The notes beneath the pieces were generated by a model. It was given only the letters and a program-made list of their open reading frames with translations, had not been told where the DNA came from and ran no database searches. The translations under genes were made by a program, and so were the position numbers. A stretch of DNA of 64,000 nt, taken from positions 4,960,001 to 5,024,000 of the forward strand of contig NZ_CP107845.1 of the NCBI RefSeq assembly GCF_041431415.1. Reading direction: 5' to 3'. The stretch's first letter is position 1. The number at the start of each line of letters is the position of its first letter. This DNA is from Streptomyces sp. NBC_00513 (GTDB taxonomy: Bacteria; Actinomycetota; Actinomycetes; Streptomycetales; Streptomycetaceae). Shown here piece after piece: positions 7,131 to 16,904 of the stretch.

Positions 7131-7370
7131 TCACTCCCCGCGAGCGCCCTCCGCGTCCTCGGTCGCCCCGTCCCGGGCGGCCAGGGCCGAGTCCAGTCGA
7201 GCCCGGGCCCCCTCCAGCCAGTGCCGGCACACCGTCGCCAGCTCCTCGCCGCGCTCCCAGAGCGCGAGCGAGTCCTCCAGGGAGGTGCCACCCGCCTCCA
7301 GCTTGCGGACGACCTCGATCAGCTCGTCGCGGGCCTGCTCGTAACCCGGCGCCGTCTCGGTTTCAGCCAT
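7131..7370 (-). CDS. xseB: Exodeoxyribonuclease VII small subunit
   Basis: This 79-residue acidic protein has the XseB core [19 protein letters not shown], then [16 protein letters not shown] and a helical [13 protein letters not shown] tail. Several copies of XseB assemble along the XseA coiled coil to form exonuclease VII, which degrades single-stranded DNA in both directions during mismatch repair and recombination. It lies 66 bp downstream of xseA on the same strand, so it is likely co-transcribed. Confidence 0.95.
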
Positions 7371-7436
7371 TCCCGTGCCACCTTATATGTGTAGTACAAC
7401 GATTTTGTTGCCGGAACGTGTCGACGTCCCCCGGGC

Positions 7437-12802: not shown

Positions 12803-13891
<1,089 letters not shown>

Positions 13892-13940
13892 GCGGATGAA
13901 ATAACACCACGTCGCTGACGTGGCAAACATGCAGGTCAGG

Positions 13941-13970
13941 AGGGGTCGGGCTCTGTTGAGCCCGACCCCT
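13941..13970. terminator. Terminator after ychF
   Basis: AGGGGTCGGGCTC (13941-13953) pairs perfectly with GAGCCCGACCCCT (13958-13970) around TGTT, followed by TCGTCG. A 13-bp stem with a tetraloop is a textbook hairpin. It ends ychF transcription and, in reverse, the toxin-antitoxin operon. Confidence 0.85.
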
Positions 13971-13977
13971 TCGTCGT

Positions 13978-14001
13978 CACCGTGCTGGATTGGTGCTGGA
14001 T
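13978..14001 (+). repeat. 24-bp repeat, copy 1 (CACCGTGCTGGAT type)
   Basis: CACCGTGCTGGAT followed by TGGTGCTGGAT; the second copy at 14620-14643 differs at one base. The two copies bracket the toxin-antitoxin pair. Confidence 0.8.
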
Positions 14002-14025
14002 ATTCTGACGCGGGGTCAGCGGCGA

Positions 14026-14289
14026 TCAGGCCTCGTAAACGGTGGACCGGTGTCCGACGTGAACGACCCAGACCACCAATTCCCCGTTGTCGATCGTGTA
14101 GACGACGCGGTAGTCGCCGACGCGGAGGCGGCGACGTTCGGGCTGGGACGCGAGTGCGGTGGTGTTGAAGCCGAGAGGGTCGGTTTCCAGCTCGGTCAGC
14201 TTGGCCAGGATGCGCAGCGCCACGTCGCGAGGGATCTTCCGGAGCTCGGCCTGCGCCTCGGGCCGGAAGACGGTCCGGTACTCACTCAC
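14026..14289 (-). CDS. RelE/ParE-superfamily toxin
   Basis: The 87-residue protein has the RelE fold signature: YRTVFRPEAQAELRKIP helix-strand start, a central helix region, then the beta-strands PERRRLRVGDYRVVYTIDNGELVVWVVHVGHRSTVYE. The Arg-rich RRLRVGDYRVVY segment and HVGHRSTVY end are the usual catalytic/ribosome-contact region of mRNA interferases of this family. The start overlaps the antitoxin stop by 8 bases (14282-14289), so translation is coupled. Type II toxin that would cut mRNA on ribosomes and be neutralised by the antitoxin. Confidence 0.85.
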   Translation of the reverse strand: MSEYRTVFRPEAQAELRKIPRDVALRILAKLTELETDPLGFNTTALASQPERRRLRVGDYRVVYTIDNGELVVWVVHVGHRSTVYEA

Positions 14290-14548
14290 TGCGCGCCAGC
14301 GTCTCCCTCATGATGTCCTCGATCGGGATTCCGGGCGCCGGGTTGGCCATGCGCTCGTCGATGATCCGGTTGATCTCGCGCTCTTCCCACTCCTGATACT
14401 TGCGCAGCACGTCGATGGAGACGACGGCGGCGACTTCCTTGCCTCGGCGCGTGATCACCGTGGGCACGTCGTCGCGGTCCGCGCGCTCCACGACCTCGGC
14501 CAGGTGTGCGCGCACGTCGCGGATGGACTCTATGGGCATCTGACTCAT
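14282..14548 (-). CDS. Phd/YefM-family antitoxin
   Basis: The 88-residue protein begins MSQMPIESIRDVRAHLAEVV, the swapped-hairpin DNA-binding start of Phd/YefM antitoxins, followed by VPTVITRRGKEVAAVVSIDVLRKYQ. Its acidic C-terminal tail (EWEEREINRIIDERMANP onward) would wrap the toxin. ATG 14548 is chosen; an upstream in-frame ATG at 14584 would put the operator-like sequence inside the gene and lacks a ribosome site. It is the first gene of the antitoxin-toxin operon, presumably autorepressed through the site just upstream. Confidence 0.85.
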   Translation of the reverse strand: MSQMPIESIRDVRAHLAEVVERADRDDVPTVITRRGKEVAAVVSIDVLRKYQEWEEREINRIIDERMANPAPGIPIEDIMRETLARSE

Positions 14549-14551
14549 GCG

Positions 14552-14585
14552 CCCAAGCGTACAGAGTGTGCCATATGTACACAAC
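14552..14585 (-). promoter_or_regulatory. Candidate operator/promoter of the toxin-antitoxin operon
   Basis: Immediately upstream of the antitoxin start is an AT-rich stretch with GTGT and ACAC half sites around CATATG (14567-14583 region), the kind of imperfect palindrome Phd/YefM proteins bind. No convincing -35/-10 pair can be fixed. Inferred from position and symmetry. Confidence 0.35.
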
Positions 14586-14619
14586 GCGGGGGGTGTGCTG
14601 GACGTGCTGGATGAACTCG

Positions 14620-14643
14620 CACCGTGCTGGATCGGTGCTGGAT
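14620..14643 (+). repeat. 24-bp repeat, copy 2 (CACCGTGCTGGAT type)
   Basis: Identical to 13978-14001 in 23 of 24 bases. It is followed 9 bases later by the first copy of another repeat, so the segment is a mosaic of short duplications. Confidence 0.8.
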
Positions 14644-14652
14644 GACCACGTT

Positions 14653-14683
14653 CAGAACCGCGTTTCTGCAGGTCGGAGCCCTG
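14653..14683 (+). repeat. 31-bp repeat, copy 1 (CAGAACCGCGTTT type)
   Basis: CAGAACCGCGTTT, then CTGCAGGT and GAGCCCTG. Copy 2 lies at 14969-14999 with 28 of 31 bases identical. The CAGG...CCTG arms around 7 bases recall a tRNA T-arm but lack the TTCRA loop. Confidence 0.75.
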
Positions 14684-14732
14684 TGCCGAACGTGTAGGTA
14701 GTTTCGTCAGATGCGCACTTCAGAAGGGGCCG

Positions 14733-14885
14733 GGCTCTGGCGAGTCCGACCCGCGCAACGAGGTCGAGTACCGGTCGTCGGACGCCCCCACCGTGACGCC
14801 GGAAGAGGTCACGGCCGACTTGGCGAAGGTGGAGGCGCTCATCGGACTCGCGGAGAAGGCGATCCCGAACATGCCGCGTTACTGA
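14733..14885 (+). pseudogene. 3' remnant of an unidentified gene
   Basis: The frame ending at TGA 14883-14885 reads as protein-like: RNEVEYRSSDAPTVTPEEV followed by an amphipathic helix ADLAKVEALIGLAEKAIP and the end NMPRY. Codon third positions are G/C-rich as in real genes. The frame is open upstream but has no start codon or ribosome site before the flanking repeats, so only a C-terminal fragment survives. I do not recognise the family. Confidence 0.4.
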
Positions 14886-14968
14886 AGCTCTGATCCGCCG
14901 GCTCGGCCTCGGGGGTGGGAGCGTCGACCTTGTTTTCCCGTGCTGATTCCGTGCTGGCTTGGCCCGCC

Positions 14969-14999
14969 CAGAACCGCGTTTCCGCAGGTGAGAGCCCTG
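14969..14999 (+). repeat. 31-bp repeat, copy 2 (CAGAACCGCGTTT type)
   Basis: Second copy of 14653-14683 with three mismatches. It ends 9 bases before copy 2 of the ychF 3'-end repeat. Together with copy 1 it brackets the gene remnant. Confidence 0.75.
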
Positions 15000-15008
15000 C
15001 GCTGCACA

Positions 15009-15040
15009 TTCTGCTTCAACGTCTGAGCGGATGAGATAAC
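15009..15040 (+). repeat. Direct repeat copy 2: ychF 3' end (putative att-like site)
   Basis: Second copy of 13874-13905 (30/32 identical). Its right edge at 15040 coincides with the point at which Uma2-like coding sequence on the minus strand breaks off. Confidence 0.85.
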
Positions 15041-15208
15041 GGCTCCGTCGATCAGCTCGGTGTGGCGTGGTGCCTCGGGGAGGCGGGCCAGGTCCTCCGC
15101 GAACCAGTCCTCCGCGAACCAGCCCTCCGCGAACCAGCCTTCCGCGCGTGGCGGGCGCATCCGGTCGGGCAGTGCGGTCACGGCTTCACATAGCGGCCCG
15201 CGGCTCAT
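15041..15208 (-). pseudogene. Uma2-family (DUF820) endonuclease, N-terminal fragment
   Basis: Reading leftward from ATG 15208, 56 codons end in EDLARLPEAPRHTELIDGA. This is the opening of Uma2 proteins (a D-L-x-x-LP-x-x-P-x-HTELIDG block before the first nuclease strand). Coding similarity stops exactly where the duplicated ychF 3' end begins, and the remaining two thirds of the gene, including the PD-(D/E)XK catalytic residues, are missing. The fragment also carries a tandem WFAE(G/D) repeat. No clear Shine-Dalgarno precedes the ATG. Likely inactivated by the same event that duplicated the ychF end. Confidence 0.65.
15092..15146 (+). repeat. 15-bp tandem repeat, three copies plus a partial
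   Basis: GTCCTCCGCGAACCA repeats at 15092, 15107 and 15122 (two substitutions or fewer per copy), with a partial fourth unit to 15146. On the minus strand it encodes WFAEG/WFAED units in frame in the Uma2 remnant, so the expansion arose in coding sequence. Confidence 0.85.
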
Positions 15209-15293: not shown

Positions 15294-16280
15294 TCACAGG
15301 GCTCGGGTCGAGGCGATCGTGAAGGTGGTCGGGGTGCCGTGGCCCGGGTTCATGGGGCCGCCCTGGTCGAACTGGGAGCGGACGATCAGGGTGCGGCCGG
15401 CCGTACGGGTCAGGGTCGTGGGGATCTGGAGGCCCGGGTCCGTCAGGGTGCGGGTCAGGCGGGCACGGGTGCCGTCGGGGGTGAGCTGCCAGCGGGTCAG
15501 GGTGTTGGTGGTGTTGTGGGCCACGCGCAGGACGCCGCCGGGGGAGAGGTGCAGGCCGTCGGCGGCCTTGAGGTCGCCGCCGCTGAGGGCGACGCGGGAG
15601 AGGGCGCCCGTGCGCAGGTCGATGCGGTGGAGGTCGCCCGCGGTCATGTCGACGGTGAGCAGGTAGCGGCCGGCCGGGTCCGCGACGATGCCGTTGAGGG
15701 AGAAGCTGCCGGCCGGTGACGGGGTCAGCCGGTCGCTCAGGTCGTACGCCGCTTCCAATGGGCCGGAGCCGGTGGCCAGTTGGGCGGGCGTGACGCGGTA
15801 GACGACGGCGCGGACGCTGTCGCTCAGGTAGGCCGTGCCGTCCGGGGTGACGGTCAGGTCGTTGACGAAGGACGGTTCGCCGCCGGTGACCTCGAAGTGG
15901 GCGAGGCGGGTGCCGGTGCGGGTGTCGTACACCGCCACGCCCGTGGTGGAGTCGGTGACCCACAGGCGGCCCCGGTCGTCGACGAAGAGGCCGTTCGCGG
16001 TGTCGCGGCCGTCGGTGCCCGCGGGCAGGAAGACCTCGGCGGTGCGGTGGCCGGGGCGGGTGCGGTAGACGGTGCCGTCGGCGTACGAGCCGACGTAGAC
16101 CGTGCCCGTGCGGGCGTCCGCCGCGATGCCCTCCGGGTAGATCTTGGCGCCCGGGAGGGAGAAGGCGGTGGAGACGCGGGTGTCCGAGGCCTGGGCGGGC
16201 GCGGTGCCCAGGGCGAGAACGCCGGCGAGGGCAGCGGTCAGGGGCAGGGTCAGGAGCTTGGTGGCAGGTGCGAGCTTCAT
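15294..16280 (-). CDS. Secreted SMP-30/gluconolactonase-like beta-propeller protein
   Basis: The 328-residue protein starts with a Sec-type signal peptide (MKLAPATKLLTLPLTAALAGVLALGTAPAQAS, cleavage after AQA). The mature part has repeated propeller blades: EGIAADARTGTVYVGSY, NGLFVDDRGRLWVTDS, VNDLTVTPDGTAYLSDS, NGIVADPAGRYLLTV and DGLHLSPGGVLRVAH. That matches the SMP-30/LRE or superoxide-dismutase-like propeller families found extracellularly in actinobacteria; enzymatic activity is not certain. ATG 16280 is chosen for the signal peptide; ATG 16313 lies inside a 10-bp repeat array. It is divergent from a MarR regulator with a palindrome between them, which suggests regulation by that protein. 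Confidence 0.75.
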   Translation of the reverse strand: MKLAPATKLLTLPLTAALAGVLALGTAPAQASDTRVSTAFSLPGAKIYPEGIAADARTGTVYVGSYADGTVYRTRPGHRTAEVFLPAGTDGRDTANGLFVDDRGRLWVTDSTTGVAVYDTRTGTRLAHFEVTGGEPSFVNDLTVTPDGTAYLSDSVRAVVYRVTPAQLATGSGPLEAAYDLSDRLTPSPAGSFSLNGIVADPAGRYLLTVDMTAGDLHRIDLRTGALSRVALSGGDLKAADGLHLSPGGVLRVAHNTTNTLTRWQLTPDGTRARLTRTLTDPGLQIPTTLTRTAGRTLIVRSQFDQGGPMNPGHGTPTTFTIASTRAL

Positions 16281-16298
16281 CGTCGGTTTCCCGTTCTC

Positions 16299-16338
16299 GG
16301 CATCAGTCGGCATCAGTGGGCGTCAGTGGGCATCGGTC
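16299..16338. repeat. 10-bp tandem repeat in the leader of the SMP-30-like gene
   Basis: Four units of GGCATCAGT(C/G), with one or two substitutions, run from 16299 to 16338, about 20 bp upstream of the ATG at 16280. On the mRNA they read as (C/G)ACTGATGCC units and include in-frame ATGs, so they could influence translation initiation. Confidence 0.8.
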
Positions 16339-16466: not shown

Positions 16467-16904
16467 ATGACTTCCATGCCCGCCGAGGAGCGCATCGGTT
16501 CTCACCTCAAGCGCGCCGAGCAGGCCCTCCTCGCGGCGAAGAACACCGCGTGCAAGCCGGCGGCGGTGACGGTTCCGCAGTACGCCGCCCTGCTCTGGCT
16601 CGCCGAGAAGCCCGGTATCTCCGCCGCGGCGCTCTCCCGGCTGTGCGGAGTCACCCCGCCGACGATGAACACCGTCCTGAAGAACCTCCAGGAGCGCGGC
16701 CTCGTCGAGCGGACCGCGCATGAATGGCACGGCAACGTCCTGGAGACGCGGCTCACGATCGAGGGGCGGGCCGTGATGGAGCTGGCCGACGCGGGTGCGG
16801 TACGGGTGGAGCGGGCGCTGGCCGCGGAGTTCACGGATGAGGAGCGCGAGCGGCTCGTCGAGCTGCTGGGCCGGTGTACACGGGTGCTCGGCACCCTGAA
16901 GTGA
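16467..16904 (+). CDS. MarR-family transcriptional regulator
   Basis: The 145-residue protein has the MarR layout: N-terminal dimer helix, then the winged helix-turn-helix (VPQYAALLWLAEKPGISAAALSRLCGVTPPTMNTVLKNLQERGLVER), the wing with ETRLTIEGRAVMELADAG, and a C-terminal dimerisation helix ending CTRVLGTLK. It has Cys at several places, including the recognition region (RLCGV), but no obvious OhrR-type Cys near the N-terminus. It is divergent from the secreted propeller gene and probably controls that gene and itself; the ligand is unknown. Confidence 0.9.
   Translation: MTSMPAEERIGSHLKRAEQALLAAKNTACKPAAVTVPQYAALLWLAEKPGISAAALSRLCGVTPPTMNTVLKNLQERGLVERTAHEWHGNVLETRLTIEGRAVMELADAGAVRVERALAAEFTDEERERLVELLGRCTRVLGTLK

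Follow-up and report, generated by a model that had tools for sequence, protein, structure and literature searches.

The window analysed here is a 64,000-bp stretch of the Streptomyces sp. NBC_00513 genome (contig NZ_CP107845.1, positions 4,960,001 to 5,024,000; genome G000 of our comparison set), and its region of interest begins at ychF (12803..13891, + strand; 362 aa), a gene matched in all 150 genomes of the genus that were searched. ychF reads through to its own stop codon and a second copy of its end lies downstream, leaving a block of identity at both ends of the intervening DNA. As a sequence-only reading of the locus had proposed, 13874..13905 (+) recurs at 15009..15040 (+) with 30 of 32 bases identical. 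No third match of 22/32 or better occurs on either strand of the window, the top score in 500 shufflings of the 2.15-kb region was 19/32, and the 20-bp core of the repeat, allowing up to two mismatches, is found in just these two places in the 8.6-Mb genome (reversed-pattern control, 0). The last ~18 bp of ychF, including the stop, make up the core. We term the two sites attachment (att) copy 1, the ychF-proximal junction, and att copy 3. The same reading had listed two further direct-repeat pairs, and these are real: the 24-bp pair at 13978 and 14620 is 96% identical, and the 31-bp pair at 14653 and 14969 sits within a longer repeat of 70 bp (14622-14691 and 14938-15007, 77%). What this inventory overlooked is a third, eroded copy, att copy 2 (14688..14701, +), apparent on alignment, where relatives carry GAACGTTCCGCTTCAACGTGTGA or similar and the window carries GAACGTGTAG. 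No tRNA or tmRNA gene that might be the integration target lies within the window.

Cassette 1 spans 13892 to ~14687 (~0.8 kb) and holds the Phd/YefM-RelE pair that had been noticed between the repeats. Both genes are on the minus strand: a RelE/ParE-type toxin of 87 aa (14026..14289; PF05016, E 1.9e-14; TIGR02385, E 4e-6, which is 0.7 bit under that family's cut-off) and a Phd/YefM antitoxin open reading frame (ORF; 14282..14584; PF02604, E 1.9e-13; TIGR01552) with a likelier start at ~14548. The Pfam ParE_toxin and PhdYeFM_antitox matches are both above cut-off and the genes are adjacent and overlapping, as in a type II toxin-antitoxin pair. Both arms of the cassette, described below, are present, and its right core is shortened to GAACGTGTAG at ~14688, a loss that deletion between two AACGT words could explain. 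A plasmid or phage origin of the complete cassette was considered and rejected: three plasmid records match ychF only, and 20 phage records match the RelE gene or the ychF end only. RelE-like toxin genes of Gordonia phages (e.g. MT521999.1 30295-30378) share 52-84 bp of the window toxin gene at 78-87% DNA identity.

Cassette 2 is a remnant. The C-terminal gene fragment reported in this interval is real and belongs to a HEPN-domain gene, of which the last ~43 codons remain (14750..14885, +; PADLOC PDC-M05B), the rest being deleted. It corresponds to residues 113-155 of the G046 protein by tblastn, and 14750-14898 is 89% identical to the DNA of G174; the gene is intact in both genomes. Cassette 2 and the first G174 cassette are collinear apart from ~1.8 kb and 0.43 kb that the window copy lacks. 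In G046 a gene for a helix-turn-helix (HTH) nucleotidyltransferase precedes the HEPN gene, and PADLOC assigns the two as a candidate defence pair (HEPN gene, PDC-M05B, E 2e-16; HTH-nucleotidyltransferase gene, PDC-M05A, E 4e-53). Pfam matches of the G046 pair to HEPN and Polbeta are sub-threshold only; we take the two genes to be a HEPN/MNT toxin-antitoxin pair.

The third unit is the 5' part of a Uma2-family gene (15041..15208, -), in which residues 1-39 are matched, together with an expanded 15-bp repeat. The gene is indeed cut exactly at the right edge of the second 32-bp repeat (15040/15041, att copy 3): in all five aligned relatives the intact gene runs on across this junction with unrelated sequence. 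The intact G046 protein has 193 aa (PF05685, E 2e-27), and Uma2 also matches the PADLOC candidate PDC-S03. A secondary att site inside Uma2 was considered, and since the intact junction sequence resembles the core only weakly by eye, deletion is preferred as the cause of the truncation. Within the fragment, 15094-15146 holds three copies of a 15-bp unit (CCTCCGCGAACCAG...), which has fewer copies in the five relatives. The array therefore comprises a RelE/Phd cassette that retains its two arms, an internally deleted HEPN/nucleotidyltransferase cassette, and the start of a Uma2 gene; from the RelE/Phd, PDC-M05A/B and PDC-S03 assignments, all three cassettes would have carried toxin-antitoxin or candidate defence genes. 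Its right border is an SMP-30-like gene (15294..16313, -) followed by a MarR gene (16467-16904), an order that recurs downstream of ychF in 11 other loci.

Short words recur around the att copies at regular positions. At many copies GCAGGT lies 38-39 bases past the ychF stop and ~43 before it, and GTGCTGG lies near +90 and +101 as well as ~65-110 bases before att. The left arm of cassette 1 (type A; 13931..13999, +) has GCAGGTCAG at 13931, +39 past the stop, and GTGCTGG at 13982 and 13993, a spacing that matches many other att copies; a terminator-like inverted repeat lies at ~13942-13969. Its right arm (14595..14687, +) carries GTGCTGG at 14595, 14604, 14624 and 14635 and GCAGGT at 14668, and an arm of this type sits between the end of an integrase gene and an att copy in the IMG/VR contig L055. 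Cassette 2 has an eroded left arm of type A (14692..14752, +; 80% to the left arm of the G174 HEPN cassette) and a right arm (14926..15008, +) with GTGCTGG at 14951 and GCAGGT at 14984; right arm and att together (14926-15024) are 82% identical to G174. On this comparison the 24-bp and 31-bp repeats are arm-site words plus their surroundings, that is, putative integrase arm sites held at fixed spacing from att copies, and not the traces of illegitimate recombination that the sequence-only reading had allowed for. About 8150-8375 bases past the ychF stop of G070 (L048), GTGCTGG recurs mostly every 30 bp, perhaps as a coding repeat unrelated to the arms.

Searches of the 150 genus genomes placed these patterns at ychF. 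The right-arm-plus-att pattern was found at 32 sites in 30 genomes, of which 30 sites are on the contig and strand of ychF, 0.5-30 kb downstream, and the other two on another contig of the draft genome G085. The att-plus-left-arm pattern was found at 37 sites in 34 genomes, 35 of them no more than 40 kb downstream and 26 at ychF itself. Either or both patterns occur near ychF in 50 of the 150 genomes; the reversed-pattern controls gave one match for right arm plus att (G085) and none for att plus left arm. A scan of 579 kb (downstream of ychF in 33 genomes, plus the virus contig G150), accepting att copies at up to three mismatches, returned 21 further copies on the ychF strand and none on the opposite one. 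The core is not a dispersed repeat unrelated to insertion: in the genome search it occurs only at its two sites beside ychF, and in the genus searches nearly all arm-plus-att sites lie near ychF. Across the order, 28 of 197 genomes matched, in one of six genera, with 16 genomes sampled outside the genus.

Integrase-bearing elements, which the sequence-only reading had suggested looking for in relatives, are present at the site. We surveyed 67 genome loci, not a random sample, with three query integrases and examined 49 att-to-att intervals in all. Class A integrases lie at the right end, adjoining the far att copy (L055, G093; partial or broken in G007, G039, G072 and G085c92), and class B integrases at the left end, beside ychF or the near att copy (complete in G024, G064, G129 and G085c92; remnants in G046, G057 and G082); in G129 the far att copy was not found within 14.5 kb. 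Where the integrase has full query length, the interval spans 14.2 kb (G093), 16.3 kb (G085c92), 17.8 kb (G024) or 22.3 kb (G064), and a class A or class B tyrosine integrase (PF00589) is contained in 7 of the 15 intervals of at least 6 kb. L055 is a 48.5-kb virus contig in which the integrase (PF00589, E 2e-13) is followed by att and then by a RelE/Phd cassette of the window type. The class A interval of G039 encodes a type I restriction-modification methylase subunit, with homologous proteins in G072, G093 and G119. A split ychF in G082 was considered and rejected: the gene has a frame change but is otherwise collinear, most likely through an indel, and the element starts past its stop. In L110 (G080:C1:4800000-4808000) the C-terminus of a class A-like integrase runs almost straight into a RelE/Phd cassette that lacks the left arm.

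Right arms go with integrase class. Their type could be classified in 8 of 10 integrase-bearing intervals and agrees with the class in all eight: type A with class A in G093, G007, G039 and G085c92 (4/4), and type B with class B in G024, G064, G085c92 and G057 (4/4), G072 and G046 being unclassified. The rule is not strict: G126, G142 and G092 combine a type A left arm with a type B right arm.

A further instance of the target comes from the satellite phage MulchRoom (L056, OQ784832.1), which carries 42 nt of the ychF 3' end at 7338-7379, 68 bp from its tyrosine integrase gene. It is like the integrase-bearing elements at ychF in pairing a tyrosine integrase gene with an adjacent ychF end, and differs in that its flanks do not have the arms of the window cassettes. 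A scan of IMG/VR for the ychF C-terminus returned six contigs: L116, L117 (60%) and L121 (95%) hold the ychF end alone, beside a MulchRoom-like integrase; L118 and L120 start in ychF and pass, as judged by eye, into DNA like the att side of MulchRoom, as an integrated copy would; and L119 has the whole of ychF next to other DNA. The ychF end is the predicted integration site of MulchRoom, one that is not named in the searched text of the phage's paper, the main text of which does not contain attP, attB, ychF or GTP-binding (PMC10690885). MulchRoom-type integrases were rejected as general users of the site, since only 2 of 392 genomes have a relative (G109, 60%; G171, 39%) and neither lies beside an att copy in the 3.7-kb loci fetched.

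The history of the RelE/Phd pair bears on whether it came to ychF by movement or by descent. The pair is not in all relatives, matching in 38 of the 150 genomes; 28 of the matches extend over 500 or more of the 559 bases. That it is an ordinary chromosomal locus inherited with ychF, the repeats being incidental, might be argued from the 6 of these 28 long copies that are distant from ychF or on different contigs and whose fetched flanks, ~2 kb per side, contain no att copy. The other 22, the window's own included, lie within 30 kb downstream of ychF, and over 17 genomes the identity of the pair to the window copy does not track that of the ychF end (Spearman 0.13, p 0.61): the pair is 92-93% identical in G006, G068 and G094, though the ychF end is 86-87%, and 86-92% in G039, G054, G012, G078 and G046, where the ychF end is 93-95%. 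Moreover, the tree of 18 cassettes disagrees with that of the ychF ends from those genomes, with p <0.001 in all four approximately unbiased (AU) tests, in which the clades were chosen after viewing the trees. Because the trees conflict, we conclude that the cassette, or a stretch containing it, has moved between lineages, and we regard simple inheritance with ychF as highly improbable. In L102 (G107), L104 (G026) and L105 (G139) the pairs lie away from ychF, the coding sequence around them is similar among the three genomes, and no att copy accompanies them.

These comparisons make it very probable that the ychF 3' end is the bacterial attachment site (attB) of tyrosine integrases, that elements stack there, and that the window holds three eroded cassettes. 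The att copies, the arms, the att-to-att differences between genomes, the integrase-bearing elements and the phage with a ychF end can each be read directly from sequence. The role of the ychF end as an attachment site, raised earlier as a possibility, is borne out by the clustering of arm-plus-att patterns downstream of the gene, by integrases next to att and by the phage copy. The attachment site of an incoming element (attP) would carry a copy of the ychF 3' end, so that insertion would restore ychF and leave the second copy at the far end. Newcomers would land between ychF and older elements, pushing the older ones away, and because each would do so the elements would pile up; from this we infer the direction in which the array grows. 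Integrase-less cassettes would use the site when a matching integrase is present, acting on them in trans, their toxin-antitoxin genes would help them to persist, and later deletions would wear the array down. The suggestion of one integrated and later eroded element was thus right about site-specific integration and about erosion; in place of a single element there appear to be three or more cassettes in a row, each inserted on its own.

Serial illegitimate recombination, or homologous recombination between ychF regions, could in principle have produced the repeats without any site-specific integration: repeats near ychF could recombine homologously, and the inner ends of the Uma2 truncation and of the cassette 2 deletions have no att. 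We consider this very unlikely for the site as a whole, as it is contradicted by the fixed spacing of the arms, the integrases adjoining att, the phage and virus contigs with a ychF end, homology that begins at or near the att edge, and the conflict between cassette and ychF trees. Illegitimate recombination, which the sequence-only reading had named as its alternative, is still needed for the individual erosion steps, namely the wear of cassette 2, the loss of the att 2 core and the truncation of Uma2.

Several observations weigh against integration by stacking tyrosine-integrase elements. Eight of the 15 intervals of at least 6 kb match none of the three query integrases, and no PF00589 match was found inside the ychF intervals of eight genomes (G049, G068, G103, G119, G092, G089, G094 and G126; 5.9-29.9 kb), a search that did not extend to serine recombinases. 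These include intervals of 15.5 kb (G049), 26.6 kb (G103), 29.9 kb (G068) and 5.9 kb (G126); such intervals may be composite, may have eroded or may depend on a different recombinase. The window genome has no close class A integrase, the best match being 44% over 64 residues. Two of the 37 left-arm sites do not fit, that of G105 being distant from ychF and that of G148 on a different contig, and up to four mismatches were tolerated in some att copies where an arm was present. Finally, excision, circular forms and integrase activity at the site are predictions from sequence, and the genomes compared include no close strain pair differing by one cassette. Since its own genome lacks a close class A integrase, the window array is probably at rest; among 12 of the 13 PF00589 matches of this genome listed, none is at the ychF site. 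Two of its integrase genes (G000:C1:5529237-5531841 and 6075164-6077768) have identical scores, as if one element were present twice.

The smallest units raise a second question, that of whether the cassettes themselves move. Eleven of the 49 intervals measure 795-1135 bp; in every one of them two att copies enclose a toxin-antitoxin or VapBC-like pair, and none of the 11 matches the three query integrases. Five are RelE/Phd (G045, G115, G071, G094 and the window, where cassette 2 falls in the same interval), five are VapBC-like (G019, G070, G029, G053 and G085c92) and one is YefM-YoeB (G051; YoeB E 9e-41). In G045, where the ORF caller took another frame, RelE and Phd were located by tblastn; the second copy of G019 has no recognizable right arm, that of G094 has four mismatches, and the window's nearer copy is eroded. 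A twelfth short interval, of 495 bp, is a class B remnant. The name VapBC-like is used since the toxin's identity rests on weak matches: it has no Pfam match at 0.01 and no solved-structure match, a 50%-identical relative has one weak VapC match (E 0.01, 16 bits against a cut-off of 80), and among 120 listed homologues some are named VapC or PIN-domain protein and most DNA-binding or hypothetical protein. Right arms are of type A in six of the 11 (RelE/Phd or YefM-YoeB) and type B in four (VapBC-like), G019 being unclassified. On the left, however, the arms of the VapBC-like cassettes fail to score as type B, and a second VapBC-like pair occurs where the arms are of type A (G100, G066, G049 and G068). 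Each cassette class may depend on its own integrase class, with type A right arms on RelE/Phd and YefM-YoeB and type B on one VapBC-like kind.

The same cassettes also occur in different settings and orders. The RelE cassette that lies at ychF in the window and G006 aligns from the first base past att with copies behind an 830-bp YefM-YoeB cassette (G051), behind 29.9 kb (G068) and in the integrase-bearing contig L055; behind 7.8 kb (G092) and 2.2 kb (G045) the alignment begins at bases 28-45. Similarly, for the Uma2 cassette found at ychF in G083 and G018, alignment with the DNA behind the 857-bp RelE cassette of G071 begins at base 5, and for G046 and G004 at bases 28-32. RelE precedes Uma2 in G071 and G039 and follows it in G046 and G083. 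A further reading, to which we give a little under an even chance, is that Streptomyces has integron-like arrays based on a phage-type attachment site. Toxin-antitoxin cassettes of ~0.8-1 kb, each hardly more than two genes plus integrase arm sites, would enter and leave the ychF end through the action in trans of integrases from prophages, satellites and islands that share the site. The cassettes could also guard attB against loss or displacement by rivals.

Conversely, the small toxin-antitoxin cassettes may never have been mobile, being leftovers of larger integrase-bearing elements that were kept since loss of the antitoxin harms the cell; we hold this possible, if somewhat short of even. 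Deletion remnants do occur at the site (a 0.5-kb class B remnant in G057, a 3-kb one in G046 and cassette 2 of the window), large intervals without PF00589 indicate that integrase loss is common, and toxin-antitoxin genes are reported to maintain the integrated element SXT (PMC2654960, as far as the text consulted goes). Against this stands the likeness of the RelE/Phd junctions from genome to genome: the left junction is ~126-141 bp in copies with a type A left arm (84-94 bp in G039 and G054), and the distance from antitoxin end to att is 114-161 bp in eight of nine measured (268 bp in G094). Nor does any interval with a class A or B integrase have a RelE/Phd pair inside its own att sites, and the 0.8-1.0 kb form is common to three toxin-antitoxin types. 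At the level of the site, integration at ychF is well supported by these comparisons; at the level of the cassette, mobility is a candidate reading beside erosion.

Integrase-less elements with att on both sides that are stacked beside integrase-bearing relatives, through accretion of integrative and conjugative or integrative and mobilizable elements (ICE/IME), are known as cis-mobilizable elements. The small ychF cassettes resemble them in having att at both ends, no query-integrase match and integrase-bearing relatives with matching arms, and differ in that the smallest ychF units are a gene pair only. In layout the ychF arrays also resemble integron arrays, whose small units, commonly toxin-antitoxin pairs, vary in order at a single site; unlike integron cassettes, the ychF cassettes have arm-type sites on both sides. 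The closest parallel appears to be the ssrA islands of Dehalococcoides, described in the text consulted as tandem, downstream of one essential gene and bounded by a short repeat of its 3' end, some with an integration module and others without one and suggested to be cis-mobilizable (PMC3146451). Those islands use serine recombinases (a CcrB-like module), target a tmRNA gene and carry reductive dehalogenase genes, whereas the ychF system has tyrosine integrases (PF00589) at a protein gene and toxin-antitoxin units down to 0.8 kb. Actinomycete integrative and conjugative elements (AICEs) share actinobacterial integrases and tandem insertion with the ychF system; tandem AICEs occur in Streptomyces and Frankia, with separate and joint excision reported in Frankia, but most AICEs with tyrosine integrases are in tRNA genes, and the main text of that report does not contain the words GTPase or GTP-binding (PMC3218068). 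In the open-access literature we found no report of a ychF attachment site in Streptomyces, the only ychF-flanking site being a pneumococcal prophage attB (PMC8637289, in the part consulted).

Recognition of the ychF end would explain the scar beside the gene and name its attachment site, one used in at least a third of the sampled genus genomes (50/150) by three tyrosine-integrase groups. Minimal integrase-less units with toxin-antitoxin and candidate defence genes might be one way for these genes to spread and to accumulate at a single spot, and the ychF-site integrases could serve as integration tools in Streptomyces. Outside this setting, MT835996.1 (1-46) and other human-gut (faecal) virus scaffolds hold ychF 3' ends, one exactly at the scaffold edge, so the gene may also serve as an attachment site among gut bacteria.

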